A stretch of DNA of 33,410 bases, from positions 1 through 33,410 of the IMG/VR virus record IMGVR_UViG_3300032323_002205. One strand, given 5' to 3'. This document shows positions 14,048 through 33,410 of this stretch, one piece after another. The DNA is from a virus. Position 1 is the first letter of the stretch, and every line of letters begins with the position of its first letter. A program made the translations under genes and the position numbers. The notes beneath the pieces were generated by a model. The model saw only the letters and a program-made list of their open reading frames with translations. It was not told where the DNA came from and searched no databases.

Positions 14048-14333
14048 GATGCTGGAGCATGCTGCCTCCCTTGTCGGCGGGCAGCGCGCTCAGGACTACG
14101 GCGACAAGACTATCAACCACATACGCATCGCAGACCTGTGGAACGCTTGGCTTAATGAAGTTCACGATGCGGATGGAAGCGGCGAGTTCAGAATCACCGC
14201 CTACGACGTGGCGATGATGATGCTCATGGTGAAGATCGCCCGGCTGATGCACACCCCCGGCCACCAGGATAGCCACGTCGATATCGCAGGCTACGCAGCT
14301 ATCCTGGAAGAGATTGCGACCGGCGCTCAGTAA
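14034..14333 (+). CDS. DUF6378-like phage protein
   Basis: A 99-residue protein that fits a common phage family of unknown function: a helix EMLEHAASLVGGQRAQDYGD, NHIRIADLWNAWL, then YDVAMMMLMVKIARLM and DIAGYAAILEEI. The GTG at 14034 is chosen because GGGAGAG lies 7 bases upstream; a TTG at 14028 is too close to that site. Its last 7 bases overlap the end of the giant gene on the other strand, so the two transcripts have complementary 3' ends. Confidence 0.7.
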   Translation: MKASEMLEHAASLVGGQRAQDYGDKTINHIRIADLWNAWLNEVHDADGSGEFRITAYDVAMMMLMVKIARLMHTPGHQDSHVDIAGYAAILEEIATGAQ

Positions 14334-17300
14334 GCGCCGATCTGTCTAGCCCTTTCAACAACACGCCTTGCCACCATGTCGCGCTGCTCCCTCAAGGGAC
14401 GCAGCGCGTCAGCCTTAGACACCGAGTCCATATCACTGCGCTCGATGCGGGCCATGCGCTTGCCGATCTCAGCGATCTGCGTCGAGGCTTGATTGACCAT
14501 AGGCCTCAGACGCAGGGGCAGACCAGCATCACCACGCAGTTCTGCCAAACGATCAAGGTCGCGTGTCTCCATAGCCATGTTCTGAGACCGCACAAGCTGG
14601 TCCGTCATCTCCTTGATCTTGTAGAACTCGCCCACGAAGCGAGATGCTGTCTGGTCATCGCTGCGATAGAAGCGGTTCGCTCCAGTCAGACCGGCGATGA
14701 TGGCAGGCATGCTCATCGGATCGCCAAACGCACCAGCAGGCTTAGTGGGGATCAGATCCATGCTAGCCAAGATGCTGTCGAAGCCAGCCAAGACAGTCGA
14801 GCCAATCGTGCCGGAGTATCCTTCCAAGACATACTGGACACGGATCGGGCTGACGCCAGCCTGCTCGCCAATAAACTTGGCGACCGCGCTGGTGCTGCGG
14901 TTCACCCGCTCCTCCGGTAGCTTGCTCCGATCACCCGCCGTCTCCAGCGCACGAGCGCGGAAGAAGTCGTAGTTGGTGGCAGCGCCGATCAACGGGACAG
15001 CCGCAGCAGGGATCGGGTTGAAGAAGAAGGTGGACATACCAAGGTCGGTCAGCGCTTTCTGAAGATCCCGTCCGTCCTCGCGACGACGAGCATCCAGAAG
15101 GAAGACAGGCAGCGCACCGAAGACAGAACCCACCTCGAATGCTCGGGGCAGAAGGATGCGCTTGTCGTTCGGCAGATAGATGATGTCGTAGCGGAACTTG
15201 ATGTCAGGATTCTCTTCGTCCCAACGGTCGGGCTCATCCGCCATGTTCTTGGCGGCGAGAGCAAGCGATGCCGCCATCACGACAAGGCCGCGCAGAAGCA
15301 TTTGCTTGGGGATGCCCAGCGTCCAGAGCTTCTGAGTATCGCCCTTCTCGTTCTCGATCAGACGGTACATGCCCTGGATCTTGGCATTCAGGAACGGCAC
15401 CAGGGGAACGAAGAAGTTCACGCTGTCGCCAGCCCAGCCGCCGCCCATGCCGCGACGAGAGAAGGGGGCCAAGAGGTAAGCCTGGAAGGCAGCCTCCTTG
15501 TCCGTCATGCCCTGAGCCTTGGCGCGCTCGTAGAGCTTGATGCGCTCGGCCATTTCAGTGGCCTCGCTCGCCTTCTGGAGCGGCTGGGTGAAGCGATACC
15601 ACAGGCCCTTCGGCCCATAGCCAAGCCCACCAATCTCGAGCTCGAACGCAGCAGCGGCGTCGCGCTCACCCATGCCGTAGGTGTAGCCACCGAAGCCCGT
15701 CTGCGCTGCGATGGCCTTGTAGGAAGCGCTGGACTTGAGCGCCTGCTGAAGACCATCGAACGTGTTCGTGTAGAAGGGAACGCCCTCCTGCACGTAGGCC
15801 ATGATCTTACCGCGCCACAGGTTAGACAGCATGAAGCTCGGGGCGAGAGTGATCATGTCGCGGAAGAAGCCCGCGAAGTTCGCCATCGTCTGGTAGATGC
15901 CGTTGGTCACATGACGAGGCGCGCCAGCGAGAGCGGTGTAGAGGACAGGGTCATCGACCTCGAAGTTCTTATCCTGCCCATCAACGCGGTAAGTGATGGT
16001 CTTACCAGACACGCGATCCTTGGAGGGACGGCCAAGGCCGACAGCCTCCATCACCTCAGCCGCCTGTCGCATGGCGACGTTCTTCATGCCCGCCTTCATG
16101 ATCACGTCTGCATTGCGGATCATGTTCTCGAACAGATCGCCAAGCGGGTTCTCACCACCCTTGAGGCTCAGGTCGAAGGCGGTCTTCACGCGCGTCAGAC
16201 TGTCAGAAAAACGAGGACCAACCACCTCGTTGGCGTTCTGCTTCGCGTCTTCATCGGCCTGCCGGTAGAAGGGCGTGTAGAACATGCTGCCAAGCTGGTC
16301 TGCCTTGCTGCGGTCCAGCGTGCCGGTGGTTACGGCGAAGTCCAGCAGCGCCTTGTTGATGCGCTGGATATCGGCAGCCATCTGCTTCCACTCAGGGTGA
16401 GCGGCCTCAGACTTGGAGATGATCTGGTTGATCTCCGCGTCTGTCAGGTTGAAGAAGCCCTTCTTGCCGCTCTTGCGGAGGTCGCGCTCGCGCAGGGCCA
16501 CGAGGTAGGACTGAGCCTCCCTCTTGTCTGCAATCTTCAGCCTGCCCTTGATCGCCGCGACAAGGCCAGGGACATCCTCCCGCACCTTCACGTCGCCGGT
16601 CTTGGGATCGTAGCCAAGCGGCCCATGATCCAGATACATCTGGACGCGACCGCTGTTGTTGAGCGCAACCTCAAGCGCGAGGCCAACGCTCTTCATCGAC
16701 AGGCCCTTCTCCTTAGCCAGACGATCAAGCATCCACCCAGGAGCGGCGCGGTTCACCATCGTTCGCACGAGGGCAGAAGAGTTCTTCTCGCCCGGCAGCG
16801 CGCCAGTGAAGCGGCGCAGCGCATTGGAGAAGACGCCGGGCTTGTCGTACTCCTTGCCCGTCAGCTTGTCTCGGAGCGCAGCGAAGGCAGGATCGGCGGC
16901 AAGCGGAGAACGGGCAGACGCCTGGAGCGCCCTGAGCTTTGCACCGGCCTTCAGACTTTCGAGATTGCTCTCATCGCCCCTCTCACGAGCCGCCTTCATG
17001 CGGGCACCGGCAACCCTGATGCCCTGCGCCTCGTTGATGTTGGGGTGATTCCGCCGCAGGATTTCCAGCACGCGGCGCGAGAGGTTCTTCATCCCGGTGT
17101 AGGTGAGGTTGACGCCTTCGGAATAAACCCCAAAACCTTCCGTCTTGTACTTGAAGGGGTTCTTCTGAATATTCAGACCCTGAAGGCTGTTCACCTTCAG
17201 AACTCCATCATCGACCGACAAGTTGATGTTCAGGTAGCCACCGGACTTGAGGTCGGCAACTAGAACGTAGTTCGCCTTGGCCCTCGTCCCGGATGCCTCG

Positions 17301-20300
17301 ATGACCTCAACGTCGGTGATGACATCGCCACGCGCAGAAGCCTGGACGTTGCGCGCGGCAGACTGAAGGGCAGCGACGCCCTGGTCGATCAGTTCCTCAG
17401 TTTGCTCGTTGGCTAGCTCTGCTGCTGACCCGGATCCGGCTCTGTCGAGAGCGGAAGCTTCGGCCCGCGCAGCATCAGCGAAAACAGTTCGCGCTCTTTC
17501 GCCTGTGCCGCCCCCTCGATCCGCCCAGGACGAAGCAAGCTCTCGGAGCCTCTCTCGGTTGACTTCGGGTCGCGTGTACCAGGGGGCATTCCCACTCTCC
17601 GAAACGCTGAAAGGGATAGGCTCGGTGCGAGGCTGGCCCTTGTTAGGTCCAACCTTATACAACACCGCATTGCCGTCCGCATCAAGCATTGGCTTTTCAC
17701 CAACACTTGCAGGCACAACTCCGTTCGCAGGAATCTTCACATCAGTGAGAAACCCACGAAAGGCGGGAACACTGAACTTCATATCCCGCCCGGTTCCGGC
17801 GTCATAGATGAAGTACGGAACGCCCTGCTCGTCTCTCCCGTAGCGAGCGCCATACTCGTACCCGCCGTATTCTCCCTGCTTGGCTACAACGCGAGCAATC
17901 GCCCTGTCGTCGCCGCGAGCGTCAGAAAGGATGGCGTCGATGCTGCCATGCGACGCCTCTTGCTGGCTGTCCGCAACCCAAGTTTCCCAATGATATCGCC
18001 CAACGCTGGCGTCCTGCGGTCGGCCAACAGCCCCATAGATGCTGGCAATCCTGCGCTCCAGCGCCCTTTCGATAGCTTCATAGATGAGCAGGCCACGCGC
18101 GCCATAGGTAAGCTCAGCAAGGGATGTGCCCGTCTTTGTGGCGCGCTTCTTCTCTCCGTTGACAACGCGCTCTTCGGTCTCTCCGTCGTATAGGTTCTTG
18201 TTGCTGAACCTACCGTCGTCCCAGAGGCGTCGCATCTGCACGCGGTCAAGGACCATCACGTCTGGGAATCCAGACACGAGCAGCGTGAAGGAGACAACCT
18301 TGTTGTCGATGCCGACGCCATCAGACGCCATCTTCACAAACTCACGACGGATACCCTTGCCTGTGCTGGTCGGGTCTTCCATCAGGTTGTGAAGATACTG
18401 AAGGCGCGAGATGCCGCCAGGGGCGTCCCGCCTAGACATCTTGAAGAGGAAGCTCTTTCCGAATGCGTTGAGGTTGTGGGTAGCTCCGGCTCCGGGCTGA
18501 CCGCTTCCCTTCGGGGCGACAGACTTTGCCCAACGCTCGTAAGCAGGGAAGTCGGCTTCAGTGAAGTCACCGGCAGCCGCCTTCCTAATCCACTGATCTG
18601 CCCCGTCGAAGGCATCAACGAAGAGACTCTCCTGCGTGTACGGCGATACTCCGCGAGAGAGGAAAGACCACATGAAGAGCTTGCCTGTCGTAACCGGGCT
18701 AAGCTCCTTGTTGATGTATGCTTGGCGGAACATGCGAGCATTGCGGAAGCCATGATCGGCATCCTCGATCTGCCCCTTCGTGAGCGTCCGAAGAAGGTCA
18801 ACCGCACCGCCATTAATGTCCCGCATGAAGTTGTACGGCGGGATCGGGACTTCCGGAGATGAGAAGGCATAAGCCTCCATCTTCGCCCAGTCTTCAGCGG
18901 AGTTCTCAGGAGTGGGGAACTTCGACAGGGTGTCATCAAGCGCAGCAAGCTGACGAGCCGCGTTCTTGTTGTCCGTGCTTTGAGAAATCAGCGCGAGTCT
19001 GGGCAGGGTGCTTTCATCAACATCTGCGCGCACCCGAAGAGCAGGCTCAAAGCCCAGCTTGTTGCCTTCAGACACATCGACGCCCGGCATCTCAGCGAGG
19101 TTGCGGGCAGAAGCCTGCGCTCCGCGCGACGGGAAGTCCTGCTCGGTCGGCGTAGCCATCTGGTCGAAGCGTCTGCCACCCTGGGTAACGGAGCGGCCAA
19201 GAACCTCCTCGACTGTCTGGAATCCATCGCCGCGCAGCTTGCTGCCCAGCTTCGAGAAGAAGTTCTTGATCACGTTCACGAAGCGAGCAAAGGCAGGCTT
19301 CAGCCCAGTCATGGGCACGCCACGACGAGACGCATCCATCAGCGCGGCGAAGACGTAAGCCTGAGCTTCCTTGGCGTCCTCGATCACGTTGGGCAGGCTC
19401 TCGCTCAGAACTTGCCAGTAGCTCTTGCTGGAGTTCGGATAGCGAGCCTGCTCAAGCTTCCTGCGGATGGTCGGGTCAACGTCCCCGATCATCATGTTGT
19501 CGCGGAAGCTCTGGTTCATGAGCTTGGCGAACTGAGGATCGTACTTGCCGTAGTAGTCCTGAAGGACGTGGAACGCCTCATGCGCCGCCGTCTCAGTCAG
19601 GTAAGGCATGACGTTCGACGCAGGGGAGAGGGAGATCGTGATGACGCCCTGCAAGGCAGAGTCGGAGGGACGCTCACGAAGACCCTGCAATTCCTTCGTC
19701 GGGTCACCGCCGCTACGGGCGATGGCGTCCGCGAGTTCCTTTGTGGGCAGAAGCTCTTTGACAAACTGAATGCGGTGGTTCGCGCCAGCAGGAAGGAGCG
19801 TGGCGAGAGTGTCAGCCGCAGTGAAGGCGGCGTACACTTGCTCAGCCGACATCTCGCGGTTCTTCAGCGCGTCAACGAGGGCGTTGCGGATCAGGCGACC
19901 CTGGACGCCCATACCCTTGAGCTTGTCCAGATAGAGAGCGTTGATCTTGTCTTGAGCCTCGACGCGGCGAGACAGACGGCCTTCAGCTTCGCTAGGTTCA
20001 ACCTCTGCCTGCGGAGCAGCTTGTTCTGCCCCAGCAGCACGAGCGGAAGCCTGCGGCGTCTGACCGCCAGCGCCTTGCTGCGGACGAGCAAAGCCGTACT
20101 CGTCAGTGGGTATGGAGGGAGCGGGCTCAGGCGGGGATACAGGACGACCAGCCTCGTCTGTATTTGGCCCCTTCGGAGCAACGGCACGATAGACATCCTG
20201 TCTCTGAGCGCCAGGGCCAAAGGTAACCTTGGGCGGCATGCGCTCGCCAGGAACACCAGACGGCTCACCAGTAGTGCCGGTCTGCTCTACGGTATCGCGC

Positions 20301-22369
20301 TGAAGAACAAAGCCTTCACCCTGAGCAGGCGAAGAAAATGGCGCGGCCCTTGGGACCGGCTTTGCTCGCGCCCTTAGATTGATTGCAGGATACACATCCT
20401 CTTGCGTCCCTGCGTCTTCTCGCGCCGTTGCTGGCGCGGGGTCATTGTATGTGCTGAGAATGTCCCTCGCCTGGGCGAGAGGCATCAACTGTCCGGTGCT
20501 TTTGCGGACATAAGACTGAAAGGCCGGGACGGAGACAGGGGCGCTTGAGCCGTACTGCTGAACGTGCTGCGCTATGTAGCCCTCAACCAGAGGGAAGAAT
20601 GCGCTGAGAGGCTGCTCGGTGGGGCGCTCGCCGCGCGCAGCCGCAACAGTCCGTTCTGCTGAAGTGCCTGGATCCACAAACTGAGTGCGACGCGCTTCAC
20701 GAAGGGCAGACTCGTCGGCAGCAACGCCTAGGGTCGGACGCGCTTCGCGAGCCATCGCTTCGGCACGCTGACGGAAGAGTTCCGCCTGCGTTGCGCCGTC
20801 CTCCGTGCGTTCGCCGCGACCTTTCTCAAACTGGAAAGCCTCTGCGCGAGAGCCAGCCTGTCCGTAGATTACCTCGTCGGACGGACGGCTCGCAGACTGA
20901 GCCGCCCTGACACTGGCGGTCTCACGATCCCTGTTGCCCTGCGGGTCAAGAACAGAAAGGTTCTCGCCGCCCTGCTGACGATCAAGCTCACGCTGAGCGC
21001 GAGCAACAAGCCTTTCCTGAGCTTCAGGAGTAGAGCCCAGGAACTGCTCAGCGGTGATGGGAAGGTTCTCAGTAACCAGACGCAGCCGGTCGGTGATGTC
21101 TGGCGTCTCAGGCTCGCGGTTCGCCACGTAGTCTGCGATAGCGCCACGCAGATCGGACGGCAGATTGCCAGCGCCCGGCTCGGTGGAGGGAGGAATGGGA
21201 GGACGCTGGATCGCGCCAACGCCGCCGCCGATGATGCCGCCAAGCACAGCGCCCGTAGCAGCCGCGCCGCCAACGCCCTGCGTTAGACTGCGCTCCTCAT
21301 CAGCCCGGCGCTGAATGGCAAGGTTCTGGGCGAACTGACCGCCACCTTCCTCGATGGCCTCAGACCCGGCTTCGGCAGTACCAACGCCAAGCGCACGACG
21401 GATCGCGCTCTGAGACACGCCACGAGAAAACAATGCCCGCTCTGCGCTCGACGGCATGAGGGCCATCGTGCCAGCAGATATACCTCCGCCAAGAAGACCA
21501 GCTTCGCGGGCAGCACGATCAGCAATGGTAGCGCGAGCCTCGTCCGGAGACATGGTCCGCAGGAGTTCTTGATAGACAGGGCTACGCTGAAGCGTCTCGC
21601 CCGGCAGACGCATCACATCCTGATACGTCTCCTCAGCAACGCTACCACCCTGCAAGCCAGCGGCAGTGCCGACAGCAGCAACCTGACCGGCGCGCTGACC
21701 GGCCTGGAGGATTGCCTGCTCAGCAGCCTCGCCACCGCCAACGGCAGCGCGACGTGCTGCCACCTGACCAATCGCAGACGCACCCCTGCCGACGCCACCA
21801 GACAGCACGAAGGCGGGGATCTGCTCAATCGCCATAGAGAAGAGCAGGCTGGGATTCGACGCCAGGGTGGAGAGCGCGGCACGCGCTTCGCCAACTAGAC
21901 CCTGAGACTCGGCATCCTGAATGGCGCGAGAGAGAGCCTGCCGCTTCTCGACAAGCTCGGGAGACATGAGCCCCTCACCGAACTCGGAGACTCGACGGCC
22001 AGCGCGAGACAGCATGTTGTCGTAGCCAAGGCCAGCAATGCCGCCCAAGCCGCCGATACCAGACAGGGTGCTACCAGCGCCCGTGACAATAGACGCGCCA
22101 GTGTCGCCAGCTAGAGAAGCGATGCCGCCGAAGAAGCCACGTTCTGGAGTGGGCGCTCGCTGAGCGGGAGCCTCAGTAACTTGAGTGGGGGCAACAGTTT
22201 CTCGACCCGCCGGAGCGGGCCTGCTCATCAAGTAGGAGACGATGTCAGCATCAGAGTATCCGGCCTCACGCGCCCCTACGATGTTGAAGTTCCTGCGAGG
22301 GGCTAGATACTCGGCAATGTCCTTGTCCGAGTAGCCAGCCCGCCTTGCACCGTCCACATCAAACGACAT
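14327..22369 (-). CDS. Giant polyvalent ejection protein (2,680 aa), LPD38-type C-terminus
   Basis: Probably an internal virion protein ejected with the DNA. It opens with two ARxAGYSDxDIxxYL repeats (residues 8-22 and 33-47), then a Gly/Ala-rich membrane-active region (80-115, 365-390). A metallopeptidase-like site HEAFH lies at 930-934 with Glu1001 in EAQAY as possible third ligand. A segment at 1351-1383 resembles the HhH-GPD glycosylase active site (Lys1357, Asp1375). A beta-rich segment lies around 1690-1780. The C-terminal part (about 2020-2680) has the MFYTPFYR and SNLWRGKIMAY elements and helical end of LPD38-type large phage proteins. QASAR occurs at 773, 1085, 1676 and 1816, at domain borders. 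It is the last gene of the late operon; domain functions are inferred. Confidence 0.9.
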   Translation of the reverse strand: MSFDVDGARRAGYSDKDIAEYLAPRRNFNIVGAREAGYSDADIVSYLMSRPAPAGRETVAPTQVTEAPAQRAPTPERGFFGGIASLAGDTGASIVTGAGSTLSGIGGLGGIAGLGYDNMLSRAGRRVSEFGEGLMSPELVEKRQALSRAIQDAESQGLVGEARAALSTLASNPSLLFSMAIEQIPAFVLSGGVGRGASAIGQVAARRAAVGGGEAAEQAILQAGQRAGQVAAVGTAAGLQGGSVAEETYQDVMRLPGETLQRSPVYQELLRTMSPDEARATIADRAAREAGLLGGGISAGTMALMPSSAERALFSRGVSQSAIRRALGVGTAEAGSEAIEEGGGQFAQNLAIQRRADEERSLTQGVGGAAATGAVLGGIIGGGVGAIQRPPIPPSTEPGAGNLPSDLRGAIADYVANREPETPDITDRLRLVTENLPITAEQFLGSTPEAQERLVARAQRELDRQQGGENLSVLDPQGNRDRETASVRAAQSASRPSDEVIYGQAGSRAEAFQFEKGRGERTEDGATQAELFRQRAEAMAREARPTLGVAADESALREARRTQFVDPGTSAERTVAAARGERPTEQPLSAFFPLVEGYIAQHVQQYGSSAPVSVPAFQSYVRKSTGQLMPLAQARDILSTYNDPAPATAREDAGTQEDVYPAINLRARAKPVPRAAPFSSPAQGEGFVLQRDTVEQTGTTGEPSGVPGERMPPKVTFGPGAQRQDVYRAVAPKGPNTDEAGRPVSPPEPAPSIPTDEYGFARPQQGAGGQTPQASARAAGAEQAAPQAEVEPSEAEGRLSRRVEAQDKINALYLDKLKGMGVQGRLIRNALVDALKNREMSAEQVYAAFTAADTLATLLPAGANHRIQFVKELLPTKELADAIARSGGDPTKELQGLRERPSDSALQGVITISLSPASNVMPYLTETAAHEAFHVLQDYYGKYDPQFAKLMNQSFRDNMMIGDVDPTIRRKLEQARYPNSSKSYWQVLSESLPNVIEDAKEAQAYVFAALMDASRRGVPMTGLKPAFARFVNVIKNFFSKLGSKLRGDGFQTVEEVLGRSVTQGGRRFDQMATPTEQDFPSRGAQASARNLAEMPGVDVSEGNKLGFEPALRVRADVDESTLPRLALISQSTDNKNAARQLAALDDTLSKFPTPENSAEDWAKMEAYAFSSPEVPIPPYNFMRDINGGAVDLLRTLTKGQIEDADHGFRNARMFRQAYINKELSPVTTGKLFMWSFLSRGVSPYTQESLFVDAFDGADQWIRKAAAGDFTEADFPAYERWAKSVAPKGSGQPGAGATHNLNAFGKSFLFKMSRRDAPGGISRLQYLHNLMEDPTSTGKGIRREFVKMASDGVGIDNKVVSFTLLVSGFPDVMVLDRVQMRRLWDDGRFSNKNLYDGETEERVVNGEKKRATKTGTSLAELTYGARGLLIYEAIERALERRIASIYGAVGRPQDASVGRYHWETWVADSQQEASHGSIDAILSDARGDDRAIARVVAKQGEYGGYEYGARYGRDEQGVPYFIYDAGTGRDMKFSVPAFRGFLTDVKIPANGVVPASVGEKPMLDADGNAVLYKVGPNKGQPRTEPIPFSVSESGNAPWYTRPEVNRERLRELASSWADRGGGTGERARTVFADAARAEASALDRAGSGSAAELANEQTEELIDQGVAALQSAARNVQASARGDVITDVEVIEASGTRAKANYVLVADLKSGGYLNINLSVDDGVLKVNSLQGLNIQKNPFKYKTEGFGVYSEGVNLTYTGMKNLSRRVLEILRRNHPNINEAQGIRVAGARMKAARERGDESNLESLKAGAKLRALQASARSPLAADPAFAALRDKLTGKEYDKPGVFSNALRRFTGALPGEKNSSALVRTMVNRAAPGWMLDRLAKEKGLSMKSVGLALEVALNNSGRVQMYLDHGPLGYDPKTGDVKVREDVPGLVAAIKGRLKIADKREAQSYLVALRERDLRKSGKKGFFNLTDAEINQIISKSEAAHPEWKQMAADIQRINKALLDFAVTTGTLDRSKADQLGSMFYTPFYRQADEDAKQNANEVVGPRFSDSLTRVKTAFDLSLKGGENPLGDLFENMIRNADVIMKAGMKNVAMRQAAEVMEAVGLGRPSKDRVSGKTITYRVDGQDKNFEVDDPVLYTALAGAPRHVTNGIYQTMANFAGFFRDMITLAPSFMLSNLWRGKIMAYVQEGVPFYTNTFDGLQQALKSSASYKAIAAQTGFGGYTYGMGERDAAAAFELEIGGLGYGPKGLWYRFTQPLQKASEATEMAERIKLYERAKAQGMTDKEAAFQAYLLAPFSRRGMGGGWAGDSVNFFVPLVPFLNAKIQGMYRLIENEKGDTQKLWTLGIPKQMLLRGLVVMAASLALAAKNMADEPDRWDEENPDIKFRYDIIYLPNDKRILLPRAFEVGSVFGALPVFLLDARRREDGRDLQKALTDLGMSTFFFNPIPAAAVPLIGAATNYDFFRARALETAGDRSKLPEERVNRSTSAVAKFIGEQAGVSPIRVQYVLEGYSGTIGSTVLAGFDSILASMDLIPTKPAGAFGDPMSMPAIIAGLTGANRFYRSDDQTASRFVGEFYKIKEMTDQLVRSQNMAMETRDLDRLAELRGDAGLPLRLRPMVNQASTQIAEIGKRMARIERSDMDSVSKADALRPLREQRDMVARRVVERARQIGAY

Positions 22370-26821: not shown

Positions 26822-27397
26822 TTAAACCGACACTGCGGTAGCTATAACAGACGGGATTGCTGGGCTGAAGGCGTTTGCTGGGGCCGCTACGATCTGAACG
26901 TTCGTGTTGTTCACAGCCCACATGATCTGAATGTAGTCGCCACCAAGAACAGTTATGAGGAAGTTCCAGGCGGCAACCAATTCAGCCGAAGTTCCCTGAA
27001 TGGCGACGACAGAAGATGAGTTTGGGATATCAATACCGTTCTTGCGAAACCAGATATAGATGTTGTGGCTTGCGCCAGAAGTCTGATCTAGCTGTGCCGA
27101 GAACTGGATATTGTACGTCCCGCGATTCTTGAAGGTAATGCGAGAACCACTCGTCACGGCGATTTGATTGGACTCAGCCGTCGTGTTGAGTTGCATCGCA
27201 TAAGGTGTGTTGACCGCCGCAGCCGTCTGGGTCGTCGTGTCGTAGAAAGACCCGTAGTACCCAGTGATCGCAGCAGAGTTGTCGATGTTGGCAAAGGCCG
27301 CATCGAAGTTCTGGTCAATCGCCCGGATAAGCTGGCTACCCCACTCCCGTTCGTAGTTCGGGGCAGGGATGGGCAGCCTTGTTCTGCCCAACCTCAT
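26822..27397 (-). CDS. C1q/TNF-like virion protein
   Basis: A 191-residue protein. After an N-terminal helix ([20 protein letters not shown]) it has a jelly-roll-like sheet: [57 protein letters not shown] and SVIATAVSV, as in C1q-like domains of phage tails. Such domains trimerise and bind host surfaces. I choose the ATG at 27397, which overlaps the nozzle gene's stop as ATGA; a longer frame from 27445 adds residues unlike the family. Confidence 0.75.
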
Positions 27398-29478
27398 CGA
27401 CGGCCATCCGACCGGATATCGACACGCGGAATGCCCAGGCGCCAAGCAACGCCAATCTGATCGCTCCTTACCCTGAGCGTCATCATGCGGCCCCTCAGAC
27501 GGAAGTACGTCTGGTCCGTGAACTGAGCGATAGGCAGCGTCGCTGTCAGGGTTGTGTTGTTGTTGGCCGTCTGACTGAAGTTGGAGCCAGAGTAGTCCTG
27601 AGCCTCAAGGATGAAATCCACCGTTGGGTTGGGGGCAGAACTATTCCTGAAGTCCAAGTCAGGGATCATGCGCCAAGCAAACCCAAACTGCTCACCCTGG
27701 CCGATCTCAATCGGAGAGCTTTCGATGTAGGAGATGATCGGGGACGGAGGGTTGGTCGAGCCGTCGTCCTGACCGATCTCGTGGAAGTAGACGTAGCCAT
27801 CCGTCGATGCCGCACGAGGATAGTCCTCAATGCCCCGATCAACCCATGTCGTGCGAACAATCGTGCCCACACTCCAAACACGCTCGTTGTAGTTATACAT
27901 AACGTAGCGGTCGTTCTCTTGGGAGTTCAGGCTGGGGTAGAACCACCAAACCTCATTGAACGACATATTGGAGCCGCCGGTAATCTTCTCGGCTTGGTTC
28001 CAGTTGAGGTCGTTGAAGACGAAATCCTTCACCGAGCAGGGCAGGCCAGCCAAGCGGCCATCCCACTGGAAGAAGCCATTCTGCCCCATCCAATACACAA
28101 CGTCGTTTGCCGACGCGACCGCGTTCGGGGCAACAAGGGATGTCATGCCGATACGCACAATCGAGTACTCGAATGGCGCGCCGATATACCGGAGGGAGTG
28201 AACGGCGTCGTCACTCCAAACAAGAATCTCCTGCTTGGTTTCGATGGCCCCGATGAACTCAGAGCCTGTCGGAATGCGAATGCCGCCAGCCGAGTTGGTC
28301 TCCGTTGGAGTCCAGACAGCCGGGTTCTCTGTATCAGACCAACGGATCAGCAGCCGATCCTGAACGCCCGTCACGATGTCGGAGCAACCGAAGGCAATTA
28401 CCTTCCGGTCCAGATCGGAGACGATGATTTGCCGAGCAACCCCCGGAACAGCAGACGCGCCCGGCAACGACGAGAGCAGTACGGCCCTGGTGCCGAGACC
28501 ACCAGAGTTGGCCCAGTAGTAGATCGCCGCATCACGCGGATTGATGACGAGGTTCTGCCCAAAGTTATCGGCAGACCACAACCGTAGTCGCGTGCCAGCA
28601 ACCTGGGTATTAGACGCAGCGCCCCAGCCTGTGCCAGCAAGAGCAAACATCGTCGTGGAGCTTACGGTCTGCGACACGCTGACCGTGTAGGTTCCAACGC
28701 CACCCGTGCCTGTGCCTAGGGCCGTGATGTATGTGGCAGAAGAACCCGGAGGGCTAGCAGACACGCCTGCCCCAGTAATCAACCGCCCAACAGCTAGAGT
28801 TCCAGACGCCACCGCAGAGACGGTAAGTGTCGTGCCGCTGATAGAGCCTGTGAACGTGGCGCTGGTTCCGGGCAGAATGCCGCCCCAAGTTCCGGCGCCC
28901 CAGCCGTTCGCATACAGCGTCGTGTCTAGGCCAGTGTTGATCTGAAAAACGGCAGTGACGGAGCCGCCGCCAGCAACCACTGTGGACGAAGCGGCAGATG
29001 CGGCAGTGATGGTGAATGTGGCCGATGTCAGCACATCGGTAATCTGAAACTCACCATTCAGGGTAAGACCACCGACAGAACTCGCCCCAGAGAAAGTCAC
29101 GAAGTCGCCCAGAAACGCTCCGTGGCTAGGGATCGTCACCGTGACAGTCGTGGAGCCATTGGTGGTGGAGAACGGGTTGCTCTGCGTGATCGTCGCTCGG
29201 ATGGGCGTGATGTCGTAGAGCGTGCCGCCACGTTCGATGTAATACTTGAGGTTCGTGCCGATCCCCAGGAAGTAGTTTCCTGCCAGATCGGAGAACGGAA
29301 AGATATTCCGGGCAGTGCCAAGGAATGCTTGAAGGGTTGCACGCTGCCAGCCGCCGATCTTCTCAGGGAAGTTCGAGCGAAAGCGCACCTTGTCAGAATC
29401 AGACCAAGCCCCGGACGTAGAGTACCGAGACCCGTCGTGCATGACCCCCGGCGCGAACTGGAGCTTTTGTAGCGGCAT
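27394..29478 (-). CDS. P22 gp10-like tail nozzle / DNA-stabilisation protein
   Basis: A 694-residue beta-rich protein that should form the tail nozzle and hold packaged DNA. The start [20 protein letters not shown] and [20 protein letters not shown] is the typical family opening, and [20 protein letters not shown] follows. Later blocks [32 protein letters not shown] and [14 protein letters not shown] are beta-propeller-like blades. A module at about 205-280 ([20 protein letters not shown] and [18 protein letters not shown]) looks inserted, as it is common in unrelated phage tail proteins. It starts one base after the collar gene. Confidence 0.85.
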
Positions 29479-29479
29479 G

Positions 29480-30586
29480 TCAGGTCTTGATGATGAAGGT
29501 CGAAGCTAGGTAGGGCTGAAGCGTCGAGACCGTGTGACTGTGCGATCCGTCCGTTGTTATTGTGTGGCTGTGACTGCCACCGCCGCCAGTCGCATCGGTC
29601 GTAAAGGTGTGGTTGTGGGCGCCAGCAGATGAGGTCGCCACATCCCCCACAAAAGGAAAATCGTACCGAGCCGCCGATATGGTACCTAGATCGGCGGCCG
29701 GACCGCCCCACGTCGGTACGGTGTGCGAGTGGGTGCCTGCGGTGCTTGTGGTTCCGCTGTGCGTATGGCTTGGAATCTGAGCCGTTGTGAGCGTCGTGGC
29801 GCCAGTGTTGCCAGTGTGGTTGTGAGCGCCATCCGTGCTGGTGGTCGCAGTAACGACGCCGCCAGTCTGACCGCGTGTGTAGGTCAACCCAGAACCAACG
29901 CCAACACGATCACGCCGATCTGGGACATTGAAGGTTGTGATGTTATCACCAACGCCATAGGTCGTGCCGATGATAGCAAAGAGCGCCGCATAGGTTGTGC
30001 GGCTAACAGCAGCACCATTGCAGAGAAGCCAGCCGGTTGGAGCGGCAGCGCCGCCGTATTCCAAGATCACGCCGGGCGGAACAATGCTCTCGCCGCCAGC
30101 GGTAATCGTGCCGGTGACCGAGAGATTGCCGCCGACCGTAGCATTACCGGCGATAGCCACATTCCCATTGGTGGCGTTAACGGGGATAGATGCCAGAACG
30201 ACGTTCGTCCCATCGCAGTACATAAGTTGGGTAAAGCCGTTGGCGAGCGTGACGCCCGTGCCAGCAGCAGTCTTCACCACAATGCTCTGGCTGCCCGTAG
30301 TCGCATTGCGGACAGCATAGAACTTGTTGCTCGTCGGCACGATGACATTGCGCGTCGCCGTCAGGGTGCCAGTGATAACCAGCACCGCGTTGCGAGCTTC
30401 GTCTGAAACGCCGTTGCCGCTGATGAGCGTGTAGTTGGCGTCGCCCATAACAATGTTGCCGACGCCGGTAATCGCCTGCTCAAGCAGGGTGCCCAGGTTC
30501 GTGTTCGTCGTGTTACCCCAGTTCGCGGCCTGCTCACCGTTGCCGATAAGCTCAAGCCGTAGGGCTGGCGAATATGTACTGGGCAT
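29480..30586 (-). CDS. Tail collar fibre protein
   Basis: A 368-residue short fibre or collar protein. A helical/linker N-terminus ([20 protein letters not shown]) attaches it to the particle. A phage tail collar domain covers roughly residues 165-230: [20 protein letters not shown] then [20 protein letters not shown]. The C-terminal 130 residues carry repeated HxH motifs (SHTHSG, THSHTV, AHNHTF, SHSHTI, SHSHTV), which in other phage fibres bind iron in a needle-like tip, and end [10 protein letters not shown]. Host adsorption is the likely role. Its start has GAGGTAGGG upstream. Confidence 0.9.
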
Positions 30587-30596
30587 CTACCCTACC

Positions 30597-31145
30597 TCAG
30601 CAGGAAATGGTGTAGGTGACGGTCAGAGTGTCGCCGCTCAGAACGCTGCGAGCAACAGCAAAGTCCGTCGCAGAGAAGAGCGTGCCGGTCGTGCCGCCCT
30701 TCGTGTTGTTCGTAGTGATGAAGCAGCCACCAACCGTCGCCGTGCCGTTGATATTAAAGACAGCAGGAGACGCAGTGTTGTCGGTCGATCCGCCCACAGG
30801 CACCGCCGCCGTGAAGGCTGGGCGCGTAGCGTTCGAGTAAACCGTGATCTCGGTCCACGACTTCGAGGCCATCGTGTCGGCGGCGCTGATGGAGCCAGCA
30901 GTCTTCAGACCCACAAAGAATGCCGCGTTGTAGGACGAGCCACGGAAGTACTGGTTGAAGAGGTCGTTCTTACCGACCGTCACGACGAGGTTCGAGAGTT
31001 CGTCTTCCCAGCGAACGGAGCCATCAGCGGCCCGGCAGATCACCTTGAAGGAACCCTTCACCTCGATGCCGTCCTGAGCAGAATGCCCCATGACCAGACC
31101 GGCGGCGGCTGCATCTACGACTCGGAGGGTGTCTTTAATGCTCAT
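30597..31145 (-). CDS. Virion-associated-type phage protein
   Basis: A 182-residue protein, mostly beta. The middle, VRWEDELSNLVVTVGKNDLF followed by NQYFRGSSYNAAFFVGLK, is a pattern I know from tail-region proteins of other phages annotated as hypothetical or structural. A C-terminal strand FSATDFAVARSVLSGDTL and VTYTISC ends it. It starts directly after the stop of the repeat protein (TAAATG) with AGGAAACAG upstream, and precedes the fibre gene. Its role is not known; a minor tail or fibre-assembly part is a guess. Confidence 0.7.
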   Translation of the reverse strand: MSIKDTLRVVDAAAAGLVMGHSAQDGIEVKGSFKVICRAADGSVRWEDELSNLVVTVGKNDLFNQYFRGSSYNAAFFVGLKTAGSISAADTMASKSWTEITVYSNATRPAFTAAVPVGGSTDNTASPAVFNINGTATVGGCFITTNNTKGGTTGTLFSATDFAVARSVLSGDTLTVTYTISC

Positions 31146-31859
31146 TTAGCTGTTTCCTATAGGGGTCCAGGTTGCTGCCACAGGGGAGATGGAAGCCCAG
31201 AAGTTCGCTTCTCCTGGGCTGATTGGAGTCCAGCCCGGATTCGGATTCGGTATCGGGTTCCACCCTCCGTATCCTGCCCCAACATCTACGAGGGTGATTG
31301 TATCCGACGCGAACGCGACCATGCCAGCAGTATTTGCCGAGCTAGCCGTCAGGATCAGAATGTCATCGGCGTTGAGCGGAATGCTCAGAGCGCCAGCCGT
31401 AGTGTCGGCCAGGGCGATTGCATCAGATGCGCTCACAGACGCGGCAAAGCTTCCAGCCGCGACTTCCGTAAAGGCAATGCTGTCCGAGATAAACTCCAAG
31501 AAAGAAAAACCAGCAATCGCGCTGTCGGCCAGAGTCAGAGAGTCAGACGATGCCACGGCAAAGATGTAGCTGTCTGTCGCAGAATCGGTCAGCGTTATCG
31601 TATCAGAGGCAGCGGCAAACCAATCTGGGGCCTTGGATGCGAAATCATGAAGTACAATAGTGTCTGACGCACTAGCCAACATGGCAAGTATGCCATTGGT
31701 TTCATCAGACAAAACAAGAGTGTCTGTAGCAAAAGCAACAGCCGACATTTGCTCCGACGCTGAATCTGTCAGAACAATAGCATCAGAAGCACTGGCCGTG
31801 TAAATAGAGCTAGGGATTGCGCTAAATGGCGCCCCAGAAAATGAGGAAATCCCAAACAT
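31146..31859 (-). CDS. 20-residue-repeat structural-type protein
   Basis: A 237-residue, cysteine-free protein made of nine tandem 20-residue repeats (about 24-203) with the consensus ASDTIxLxDxA in an exact register, then a proline/tryptophan tail with WNPI, WTPI and WTPI. Repeats of this type are expected to stack into a beta-solenoid or fibre shaft. It lies 5 bases after the radical SAM gene and directly before the virion-type 182-residue gene. GGAG in the end of the radical SAM gene serves as binding site. A surface or fibre role and modification by the neighbouring enzymes are inferred. Confidence 0.75.
   Translation of the reverse strand: MFGISSFSGAPFSAIPSSIYTASASDAIVLTDSASEQMSAVAFATDTLVLSDETNGILAMLASASDTIVLHDFASKAPDWFAAASDTITLTDSATDSYIFAVASSDSLTLADSAIAGFSFLEFISDSIAFTEVAAGSFAASVSASDAIALADTTAGALSIPLNADDILILTASSANTAGMVAFASDTITLVDVGAGYGGWNPIPNPNPGWTPISPGEANFWASISPVAATWTPIGNS
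31251..31790 (-). repeat. Nine tandem 60-base coding repeats
   Basis: The coding sequence of residues 24-203 is periodic at exactly 60 bases. The repeats begin ASDAIVL, ATDTLVL, ASDTIVL, ASDTITL, SSDSLTL, ISDSIAF, ASDAIAL, ADDILIL and ASDTITL. The DNA of the copies has drifted, so they are old duplications kept by selection on protein structure rather than fresh slippage products. Confidence 0.8.
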
Positions 31860-31864
31860 CTAAT

Positions 31865-33217
31865 TCACTCCGCGCCATTGCGGCTGGCTGACAATTCTTT
31901 CACATTATTCTTTGCTGCCTCAATCATCCCCCAGATATCATGCCGATCAGACCTGTGCGGTCCCTCAATCTTGATGGGGACAAAGCCAGTCAGGAACTCA
32001 ATGCCAGCGGCAAAGATTGGTACAGCATCAGCGTATGCGTTGTCACAAGATTTCTCCCAGAGCGGCCCGGTGAGAAACAGGCAAGAGCCCTGGCAAATGT
32101 GGAGCATGGGGCATTTCGGGCACTCTTCTCGGTCGCTCCAATGCGTCGAGGTCTTCACCCTTACAGATGCAAGGTCGCTAACGTGACCTAGCTTGTGAGA
32201 GATGCCTGCCGGGTTACGAGACACAGCAGACACATTCTGACACGTTAGCACGTTGCCGCGCAGATCAACCGCAAGATTGTCGGACTGATCCATACCGCAC
32301 TTTTGCTCAACCGCGCTTATGGGCCTTTCGGCTCGAAATGAGTTCACAAAACTCATAACGCGATTGCTTACAGCATGCTTGAAGCGAGTCACTTGCCCCG
32401 TGCGAATCTCTGTGAAGGCTAGGTTGCGATACTTGATTGCCTCATCCGGAGTAAGAGATTGTGCAGCGCCACCCTCGTCGTAAGCGTCAATCATCGCCCC
32501 TTCACCAATGACAAGGTAATCTTGGTAGGGCGCGACAAGCTCTTCAAAGAAACGCTGAATCTCTGCCCGGCTCGTGTTGGAGCGGTTGAGCATGGAGTTG
32601 AAGCTGAAGCGTTTCTGAGGAGCAAGGCGACGATAGAGCAGCATGATTGCCGCCCTGGTCTCAGGATCGTCTAGCGGATCAGGACCGCGTACATGCTGGC
32701 CTGGGCCGTCATGCGAGATCGAAACACTGAACCCCAGTCGATCCAGCCAATCGACCTTCTCTTCATCAAGGATGCTGCCGTTTGTGATGACAGAGAATAT
32801 CGCGTCGGGGAACTTCTTGCGCAGGCTTTCGGCCAGAGGTTTCAGGGTCTTCCAATAGACAAATGGCTCGCCGCCCCAAAACTCAATATTCTCAGGAGGC
32901 TGCTTAAGCCAAGCGTCCATGCCCGCGACAAACTTCTCGGCCTCTTCTCGGTGGGTCTCGTCCGAATGGGGCACAAATCTTTGGCTGCAATATTCGCAGG
33001 AGAAGTTGCAAGAGAGACCAAGCTGAACCTTTAGCGTGCGAACTCCCGTCTTCCCAACGGCATCTTTGGCCGAAGGTGCTTTTTTCCGGATTCCATCTAT
33101 GCGCTGAACCAAAGAAACATAGTTTTCGTCCGTAAGTGTGGAGTTGTCAGAGTTGTAGAGCAGCTTTTGCGGCTGCCCAGTGCGCTGATTGACAGCAGTG
33201 ATCTCAAAGGTAGGCAT
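31865..33217 (-). CDS. Radical SAM/SPASM-domain enzyme
   Basis: A 450-residue radical SAM enzyme. The 4Fe-4S/SAM motif CNFSCEYC gives Cys70, Cys74 and Cys77 (CX3CX2C), followed by a WGGEPF element. A C-terminal SPASM domain is complete: Cys307-X13-Gly321-X4-Cys326, then Cys366-X2-Cys369-X5-Cys375-X3-Cys379 and Cys391, for auxiliary clusters. Such enzymes often modify peptides or proteins (sulfatase maturases, peptide-crosslinking enzymes). It starts one base after the oxygenase stop and ends 5 bases before the repeat-protein gene, so a target in the virion is plausible. Clusters need low oxygen to stay active, which hints at an anaerobic or microaerobic host. Confidence 0.9.
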   Translation of the reverse strand: MPTFEITAVNQRTGQPQKLLYNSDNSTLTDENYVSLVQRIDGIRKKAPSAKDAVGKTGVRTLKVQLGLSCNFSCEYCSQRFVPHSDETHREEAEKFVAGMDAWLKQPPENIEFWGGEPFVYWKTLKPLAESLRKKFPDAIFSVITNGSILDEEKVDWLDRLGFSVSISHDGPGQHVRGPDPLDDPETRAAIMLLYRRLAPQKRFSFNSMLNRSNTSRAEIQRFFEELVAPYQDYLVIGEGAMIDAYDEGGAAQSLTPDEAIKYRNLAFTEIRTGQVTRFKHAVSNRVMSFVNSFRAERPISAVEQKCGMDQSDNLAVDLRGNVLTCQNVSAVSRNPAGISHKLGHVSDLASVRVKTSTHWSDREECPKCPMLHICQGSCLFLTGPLWEKSCDNAYADAVPIFAAGIEFLTGFVPIKIEGPHRSDRHDIWGMIEAAKNNVKELSASRNGAE

Positions 33218-33218
33218 C

Positions 33219-33410
33219 TCAGAACCTCATGTCACGGTGAAGTTCGACGTAGCCGTGGCTAACGACCTGAAAGTTCACCACCATAACAACCCGCTGAGTA
33301 TCGCCACGCCAAGTGTTTGTTTCGTGCCAAAGGTAGCCGGGGTGGATGACAGTAAGCCCCTGATAGGGAGAGATCGACTCAACCTTCTCCCAGTATGGGT
33401 AGTTGATGGC
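33219..33410 (-). CDS. 2OG-Fe(II) oxygenase, C-terminal part (partial)
   Basis: Only the last 63 residues are in the window; the gene continues past the right edge. The segment GLTVIHPGYLWHETNTWRGD followed by TQRVVMVVNFQV carries the distal Fe(II)-binding histidine (WHET) and, ten residues later, the arginine (QRVV) that binds 2-oxoglutarate in this superfamily. The HxD motif would lie outside the window, so this is a strong but incomplete call. The TGA is one base from the ATG of the radical SAM gene, so the two are translationally coupled. It might hydroxylate a protein or a nucleobase. Confidence 0.75.
   Translation of the reverse strand, partial: AINYPYWEKVESISPYQGLTVIHPGYLWHETNTWRGDTQRVVMVVNFQVVSHGYVELHRDMRF

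Follow-up and report, generated by a model that had tools for sequence, protein, structure and literature searches.

Radical SAM enzymes that mature peptides are known from the making of antibiotics and cofactors. In the maturase CteB, auxiliary cluster I has an open site that is bound by a cysteine of the substrate, whereas in anSME it is fully ligated (PMC6231123). QhpD, a radical SAM enzyme of quinohemoprotein amine dehydrogenase maturation, makes Cys-Asp and Cys-Glu thioethers in a non-RiPP protein (PMC8326336). In pelagimyophages, radical SAM genes are variable cassettes in the tail-fibre island, or host recognition cluster (PMC7029224); no substrate, tract or mechanism was put forward there, and the likeness to the enzyme described here lies in the gene setting. 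Closest of all is the phage protein family PHROG 1802, which includes gp030 of Achromobacter phage JWF and its counterpart in Achromobacter phage 2-1 and for which no function has been described. Here we analysed a member of this family, about 45% identical to the two Achromobacter phage proteins over its full length, that is encoded on a linear IMG/VR record, analysed over its whole length of 33,410 bases (the window).

The right end of the window carries three minus-strand genes. The last 63 codons of a gene for a probable 2OG-Fe(II) oxygenase (33219..33410), whose 5' part lies off the contig end, are followed after 1 base by the gene for a 450-aa radical SAM/SPASM enzyme (31865..33217), which we propose to be a maturase of a fibre-tip tract, and after a further 5 bases by the gene for a cysteine-free, 237-aa protein with 20-residue repeats (31146..31859). 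The tight chain described in the initial annotation is thus real. The repeat protein stands at the start of an ordinary structural module, outside the enzyme system; the module continues on the same strand with a 182-aa protein (30597..31145, phrog_8123), a phage tail collar protein (29480..30586, PF07484) and a virion structural protein (27394..29478, phrog_3287). Downstream of these structural genes, also on the minus strand, a single 2680-aa ORF (14327-22369) resembles a giant multidomain phage protein.

The window enzyme exceeds the cut-offs of both Pfam Radical_SAM (PF04055) and NCBIfam SPASM (TIGR04085), and the PHROG 1802 profile matches it at 2.7e-61 over residues 25-403. The cysteines of the CxxxCxxC motif, the site of the radical SAM 4Fe-4S cluster, are C70, C74 and C77 (residues 70-77, minus strand 32987..33010), and this motif is invariant across an alignment of 69 family sequences. 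The SPASM motif (residues 307-391, minus strand 32045..32299), for which two auxiliary clusters are expected, has the canonical spacing C307-x13-G-x4-C326, C366-x2-C369-x5-C375-x3-C379 and C391. This bears out the complete SPASM cysteine set noted earlier, and the canonical seven-cysteine motif is present in 176 of 177 members of the family. With the three CxxxCxxC and the seven SPASM cysteines, all ten cysteines of the protein are accounted for. From the count of seven in the SPASM domain, auxiliary cluster I is expected to be one cysteine ligand short, as in CteB.

An AlphaFold2 model of the enzyme (pLDDT 92.2) was compared with solved structures by Foldseek. The nearest folds include CteB (5why, 5wgg), anSMEcpe, ChlB, TigE, SkfB and SuiB, with the epimerase EpeE also among the matches; most are peptide or protein maturases, and several act on cysteine. 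With CteB and other ranthipeptide and sactipeptide maturases (e.g. PapB, NF047865) the phage enzyme shares the radical SAM and SPASM fold, the seven SPASM cysteines and, in our proposal, a cysteine-rich substrate; both the fold match and the ten-cysteine count agree with the CteB type, as read from the sequence and the predicted model. It differs from this type in that we propose the C-terminal end of a large virion protein as its substrate, in having no predicted RRE leader-binding domain (the first 60 residues of the model contain only short strands and no helix) and in its scores with the NCBIfam profiles of known maturase families, all of which lie far under the cut-offs: 55.1 bits for PapB (NF047865, cut-off 340), 58.1 bits for the nif11 maturase (TIGR04064, cut-off 518.7), 51.9 bits for QhpD (TIGR03906, 4.7e-14, cut-off 453) and 40 bits for the anaerobic sulfatase maturase (TIGR03942, cut-off 349). 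Since the PapB, nif11 and QhpD scores fail, we class the enzyme solely as a maturase-like, SPASM-domain radical SAM protein of PHROG 1802. The second-best solved fold, anSMEcpe, also acts on a protein cysteine, but its auxiliary clusters are fully cysteine-ligated (PMC6231123) and its substrate motif is a single site. QhpD, besides being a weak match, has another substrate and another setting.

Searched with the window enzyme alone, IMG/VR returned zero relatives; a three-sequence alignment of the window enzyme and its homologues from JWF and 2-1 found relatives on 420 IMG/VR contigs, and 80 of these 420 stretches were retrieved. The same alignment matched only six bacterial contigs. Among evenly drawn bacterial genomes, the starting genome counted in each case, the enzyme family was rare: it occurred in 5 of 301 within one bacterial family and in 1 of 399 within the phylum. 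Full-length matches among 50,697 annotated phage records were confined to JWF and 2-1. Judged by these searches, the enzyme system is widespread among viruses. One chromosomal relative (L423:6182-10028, genome G102) has a YcaO-nitroreductase fusion as a neighbour, together with an ORF of 65 aa, much like an azole-forming RiPP cluster, and this RiPP-type neighbourhood supports a peptide-modifying ancestry of the enzyme.

In almost all related loci with sufficient upstream sequence, a gene upstream of the enzyme encodes a tail-fibre-like protein that ends in alternating X-Cys, for example NCNCDCNCC before the stop codon; other C-termini read TRYNCNCDCNCC, YNFNCNCNCNCDCYC and FNCRTNCNCNCDCNCTCK. 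The tract consists of 3-10 X-Cys dipeptides at the extreme C-terminus, X being mostly Asn and also Asp or Ala. When we started from the enzyme, 2.5 kb or more of upstream sequence was available at 79 loci, and a same-strand tract was found at 73 of them. The six exceptions comprise three loci with weaker tracts (the fibres of L040 and L041 end in INCRNCNC and that of L042 in ACNCACCGCC), one that is cut by the contig start (L029) and two in which no tract was seen (L024 and L061). In the reverse direction we used DNA patterns for NCNCNCNC and NCNCDCNC that were chosen without reference to the enzyme. Among the matches listed, every C-terminal tract gene followed by 4 kb or more of sequence had a same-strand enzyme gene within 8 kb (78 of 78); the enzyme was found for 21 of 28 tract genes where 1.5-4 kb were available and for 2 of 19 where less than 1.5 kb was. 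A matched control pattern, KCKCKCKC, gave 62 loci; in none did it stand at the C-terminus of an ORF of 80 aa or longer, and no enzyme hit at these loci exceeded 22 bits. The orientation is nearly constant as well: 166 tract genes preceded the enzyme on its own strand, whereas 6 lay downstream of it and 2 on the other strand. The loci are not independent, as related phages recur and the forward and reverse searches share contigs. The tract genes nevertheless form 13 unlinked groups, of which at least two look like spurious reading frames, leaving about ten unrelated fibre families. As the unrelated fibre groups show, the link between enzyme and tract outlives fibre exchange, and it is near-exclusive in both directions. 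The general logic of RiPP systems, a linked ribosomal substrate with a distinct segment, thus appears in the related loci as the two-way tract link.

The residue before the tract cysteine was Asn in 460, Asp in 68 and Ala in 43 of about 600 positions in 120 distinct tracts. Cysteine accounts for 25% of the final 25 residues of the tract fibres and for 1.5% elsewhere, and the synonymous codons within the tracts are mixed. The mixed codons and the negative KCKCKCKC control led us to reject an origin of the tract by chance or at the DNA level. Radical SAM genes of Campylobacter and Erwinia phages gave partial matches only and were set aside; the retrieved stretches of CP220 and phiEaH2 contained no NC tract. 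Other NC tracts adjoin more distant radical SAM genes (∼106-148 bits with the family profile; L220, L226, L231, L259, L106 and L147), and some of the proteins that bear them carry TCQGCQTCQGCQ repeats. These are possibly further families of substrate and enzyme.

Some tracts are not terminal, and these run straight into a Hint or a Peptidase_S74 domain, both of which are self-processing. A Hint domain follows the tract in JWF, 2-1 and L422 with scores above the cut-off and in L060, L091 and L210 with scores below it, while in L228 the tract is followed by a Peptidase_S74 intramolecular chaperone; behind the internal tract of L223 we found no recognised domain. In JWF (NC_029075), whose tract fibre is gp028, the junction of tract and Hint domain reads NCNCDCNCNCS/CFPAGTMVLMADG. 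Because a self-processing domain follows directly, such internal tracts would again end the mature protein, with self-cleavage leaving the tract as the C-terminus. JWF and 2-1 thus resemble the other loci in having an NC-tract fibre upstream of the enzyme, with the Hint domain in that same fibre, and differ from the window in lacking a recognised 2OG gene between the fibre and enzyme genes. In JWF that place is taken by gp029, which we rejected as a 2OG oxygenase since it neither matches a Pfam family nor resembles the window fragment.

The oxygenase fragment of the window matches PF13759 at 1.7e-4, under the cut-off, over the last 63 residues that are present, and it also matches phrog_81. 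Its closest full-length relative (L059; 69% identity over 61 aa) scores 29.3 bits with PF13759, above the cut-off, and has the residues HYH...WHE...R, as expected of an HxD/H...H...R core. We read the gene beside the enzyme as a probable, truncated 2OG-Fe(II) oxygenase, the enzyme class named in the initial annotation. The L059 oxygenase directly precedes the radical SAM gene, and the order there is a fibre ending in QRRYNCNCNC, an Ig-like protein, a small gene, the oxygenase and the radical SAM enzyme. This order predicts the genes beyond the contig end of the window, and we infer that a tract fibre of the window phage lies just past it.

Genes between fibre and enzyme were counted in 136 distinct fuller loci. 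An Ig-like protein was present in 95 of them, and 62 had a 2OG oxygenase from a single homologous group. Less frequent were HxD...H proteins that match no Pfam family (14 loci), a second radical SAM enzyme (7 loci), 2OG oxygenases of a second group (6 loci) and desaturase-like proteins (6 loci); in 13 loci no gene lay between the tract fibre and the enzyme. The Ig-like protein (L059:6101-6817 and relatives) has a variable N-terminus and a conserved C-terminal domain, and its AlphaFold2 model (pLDDT 86.5) gave just generic Ig-fold matches in Foldseek. In four loci (L040, L041, L044 and L049; e.g. L040:8281-9372) a protein with an SGG(L/I)DSTF motif is encoded downstream of the enzyme. The motif resembles that of ATP pyrophosphatases or asparagine synthase, and the one protein searched had no Pfam match; it could be another cassette enzyme.

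We propose, with a probability of about 0.7, that a fibre-tip cassette has this enzyme as its central maturase, that the C-terminal X-Cys tract of the upstream fibre is its substrate, that thioethers are the probable products and that the oxygenase is an accessory. That the tract is the substrate we infer from the sequence comparisons, and the thioether chemistry is suggested by the fold and the cysteine count. A tract cysteine thiolate would bind at an auxiliary cluster of the enzyme, the enzyme would abstract a hydrogen from a residue near this cysteine, and cross-links from cysteine to that residue would form, as with ranthipeptide and sactipeptide maturases, among them CteB with its substrate CteA, and with QhpD. 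The 2OG-Fe(II) oxygenase, which is found in many cassettes though not in all, would then probably hydroxylate residues of the tract or the fibre. Where a Hint or Peptidase_S74 domain follows, self-cleavage would make the tract the mature C-terminus. Substrate recognition without an RRE may rest on a fibre domain or on the tract itself. The target of the oxygenase is the weakest step of the proposal, because we saw no difference in tract composition between loci with and without a 2OG gene; this gene is missing from many tract loci.

The initial annotation had placed the target elsewhere, in the repeat protein, whose gene adjoins that of the enzyme with a gap of 5 bases. The repeat itself is genuine: the protein contains no cysteine, and its sequence compared with itself agrees best at a lag of 20 residues, with 56 identities against a maximum of 43 over all lags in 1000 shuffles. 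Relatives with 66-69% identity (L093-L099) occur in phages of the same type as that of the window, as do two further ones (L270 and L274). In the readable neighbourhoods (L093, L094, L097, L098, L270 and L274) no enzyme genes were found beside them; the same structural genes follow the repeat protein, and a run of ordinary fibre cassettes precedes it. Likewise, none of the 80 nearest relatives of the virion protein at 27394-29478 had the enzyme or the tract in the retrieved stretches. As the relatives with readable neighbourhoods occur without radical SAM and 2OG genes alongside, we rejected the repeat protein as substrate, and its lack of cysteine and the upstream tract fibre as the constant partner of the enzyme elsewhere also speak against it; we regard its modification by the two enzymes as highly improbable. 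The claim that the enzymes modify a virion protein thus stands in part: the evidence points to a virion target, but not to this one. The pair of radical SAM and 2OG genes does recur in phage tail-fibre regions. The upstream fibre with its C-terminal Asn-Cys tract, which in the window would lie off the contig, is the better candidate. Because the relatives of the repeat protein and of the virion protein lack the enzymes in the stretches that were read, our preferred reading is that the radical SAM and 2OG genes form a cassette, added to a standard structural module on its fibre side. Two ORFs in the fibre cassettes of these relatives (L094:4435-4980 and L097:9365-9994) look by eye like HNH and GIY-YIG homing endonucleases; it is possible that such ORFs drive the exchange of fibre cassettes.

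A cassette in such a place might also hold auxiliary metabolic or host-surface genes that sit in a hypervariable fibre island by happenstance, as the pelagimyophage radical SAM cassettes near sugar genes in the host recognition cluster could suggest (PMC7029224). The near-exclusive two-way link to the tract, with a fixed orientation and across unrelated fibre groups, makes this very improbable, if marginally less so than modification of the repeat protein. Alternating cysteines could also bind metal, and the tract might be a metal-binding or disulfide-bonded tip, with the enzyme acting on another component such as the frequent Ig-like protein, or serving assembly indirectly. We consider this unlikely: the Ig-like protein is missing in 41 of the 136 loci and the tract almost never, the loci without any intervening gene argue against an Ig-like target, and the SPASM folds nearest to the enzyme belong to enzymes with peptide or protein substrates, in several cases with cysteine as the residue acted on. 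A more serious alternative is that the enzyme does modify the tract but through a different reaction (epimerisation, C-C cross-linking, or the oxidation of Cys or Asn), with the main change made by the oxygenase. SPASM enzymes are chemically diverse, and anSMEcpe, SuiB and EpeE are all among the fold matches, so we hold this to be a real possibility, if the less probable one; the cysteine density of the tract and the cysteine gap at auxiliary cluster I favour CteB-like thiolate binding but are not decisive.

The chemistry class of SPASM enzymes is already known; what would be new is the substrate class and the setting. In a literature search that covered mainly open-access journal papers, we found no papers connecting phage radical SAM genes with fibre tracts. 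Taking all cassettes together, we see an even chance that many phages build the tips of their receptor-binding fibres as covalently cross-linked, RiPP-like (Asn-Cys)n tracts by means of a dedicated radical SAM maturase, with exposure by self-cleaving Hint or S74 domains where this is needed and tailoring by oxygenases, desaturase-like proteins or a second radical SAM enzyme. Because a cultured phage, Achromobacter phage JWF, carries the system, it is accessible to direct mass spectrometry. If the proposal is true, the tract fibres would be a previously undescribed class of radical-SAM-modified virion proteins, radical SAM chemistry would be newly used at the host-recognition fibre tip, and virion maturation would gain a new layer. 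A set of phage genes for radical SAM and 2OG enzymes, otherwise read as auxiliary metabolism, would then encode virion-building enzymes, and the prediction of host range from the fibre sequence alone would miss a chemical modification.
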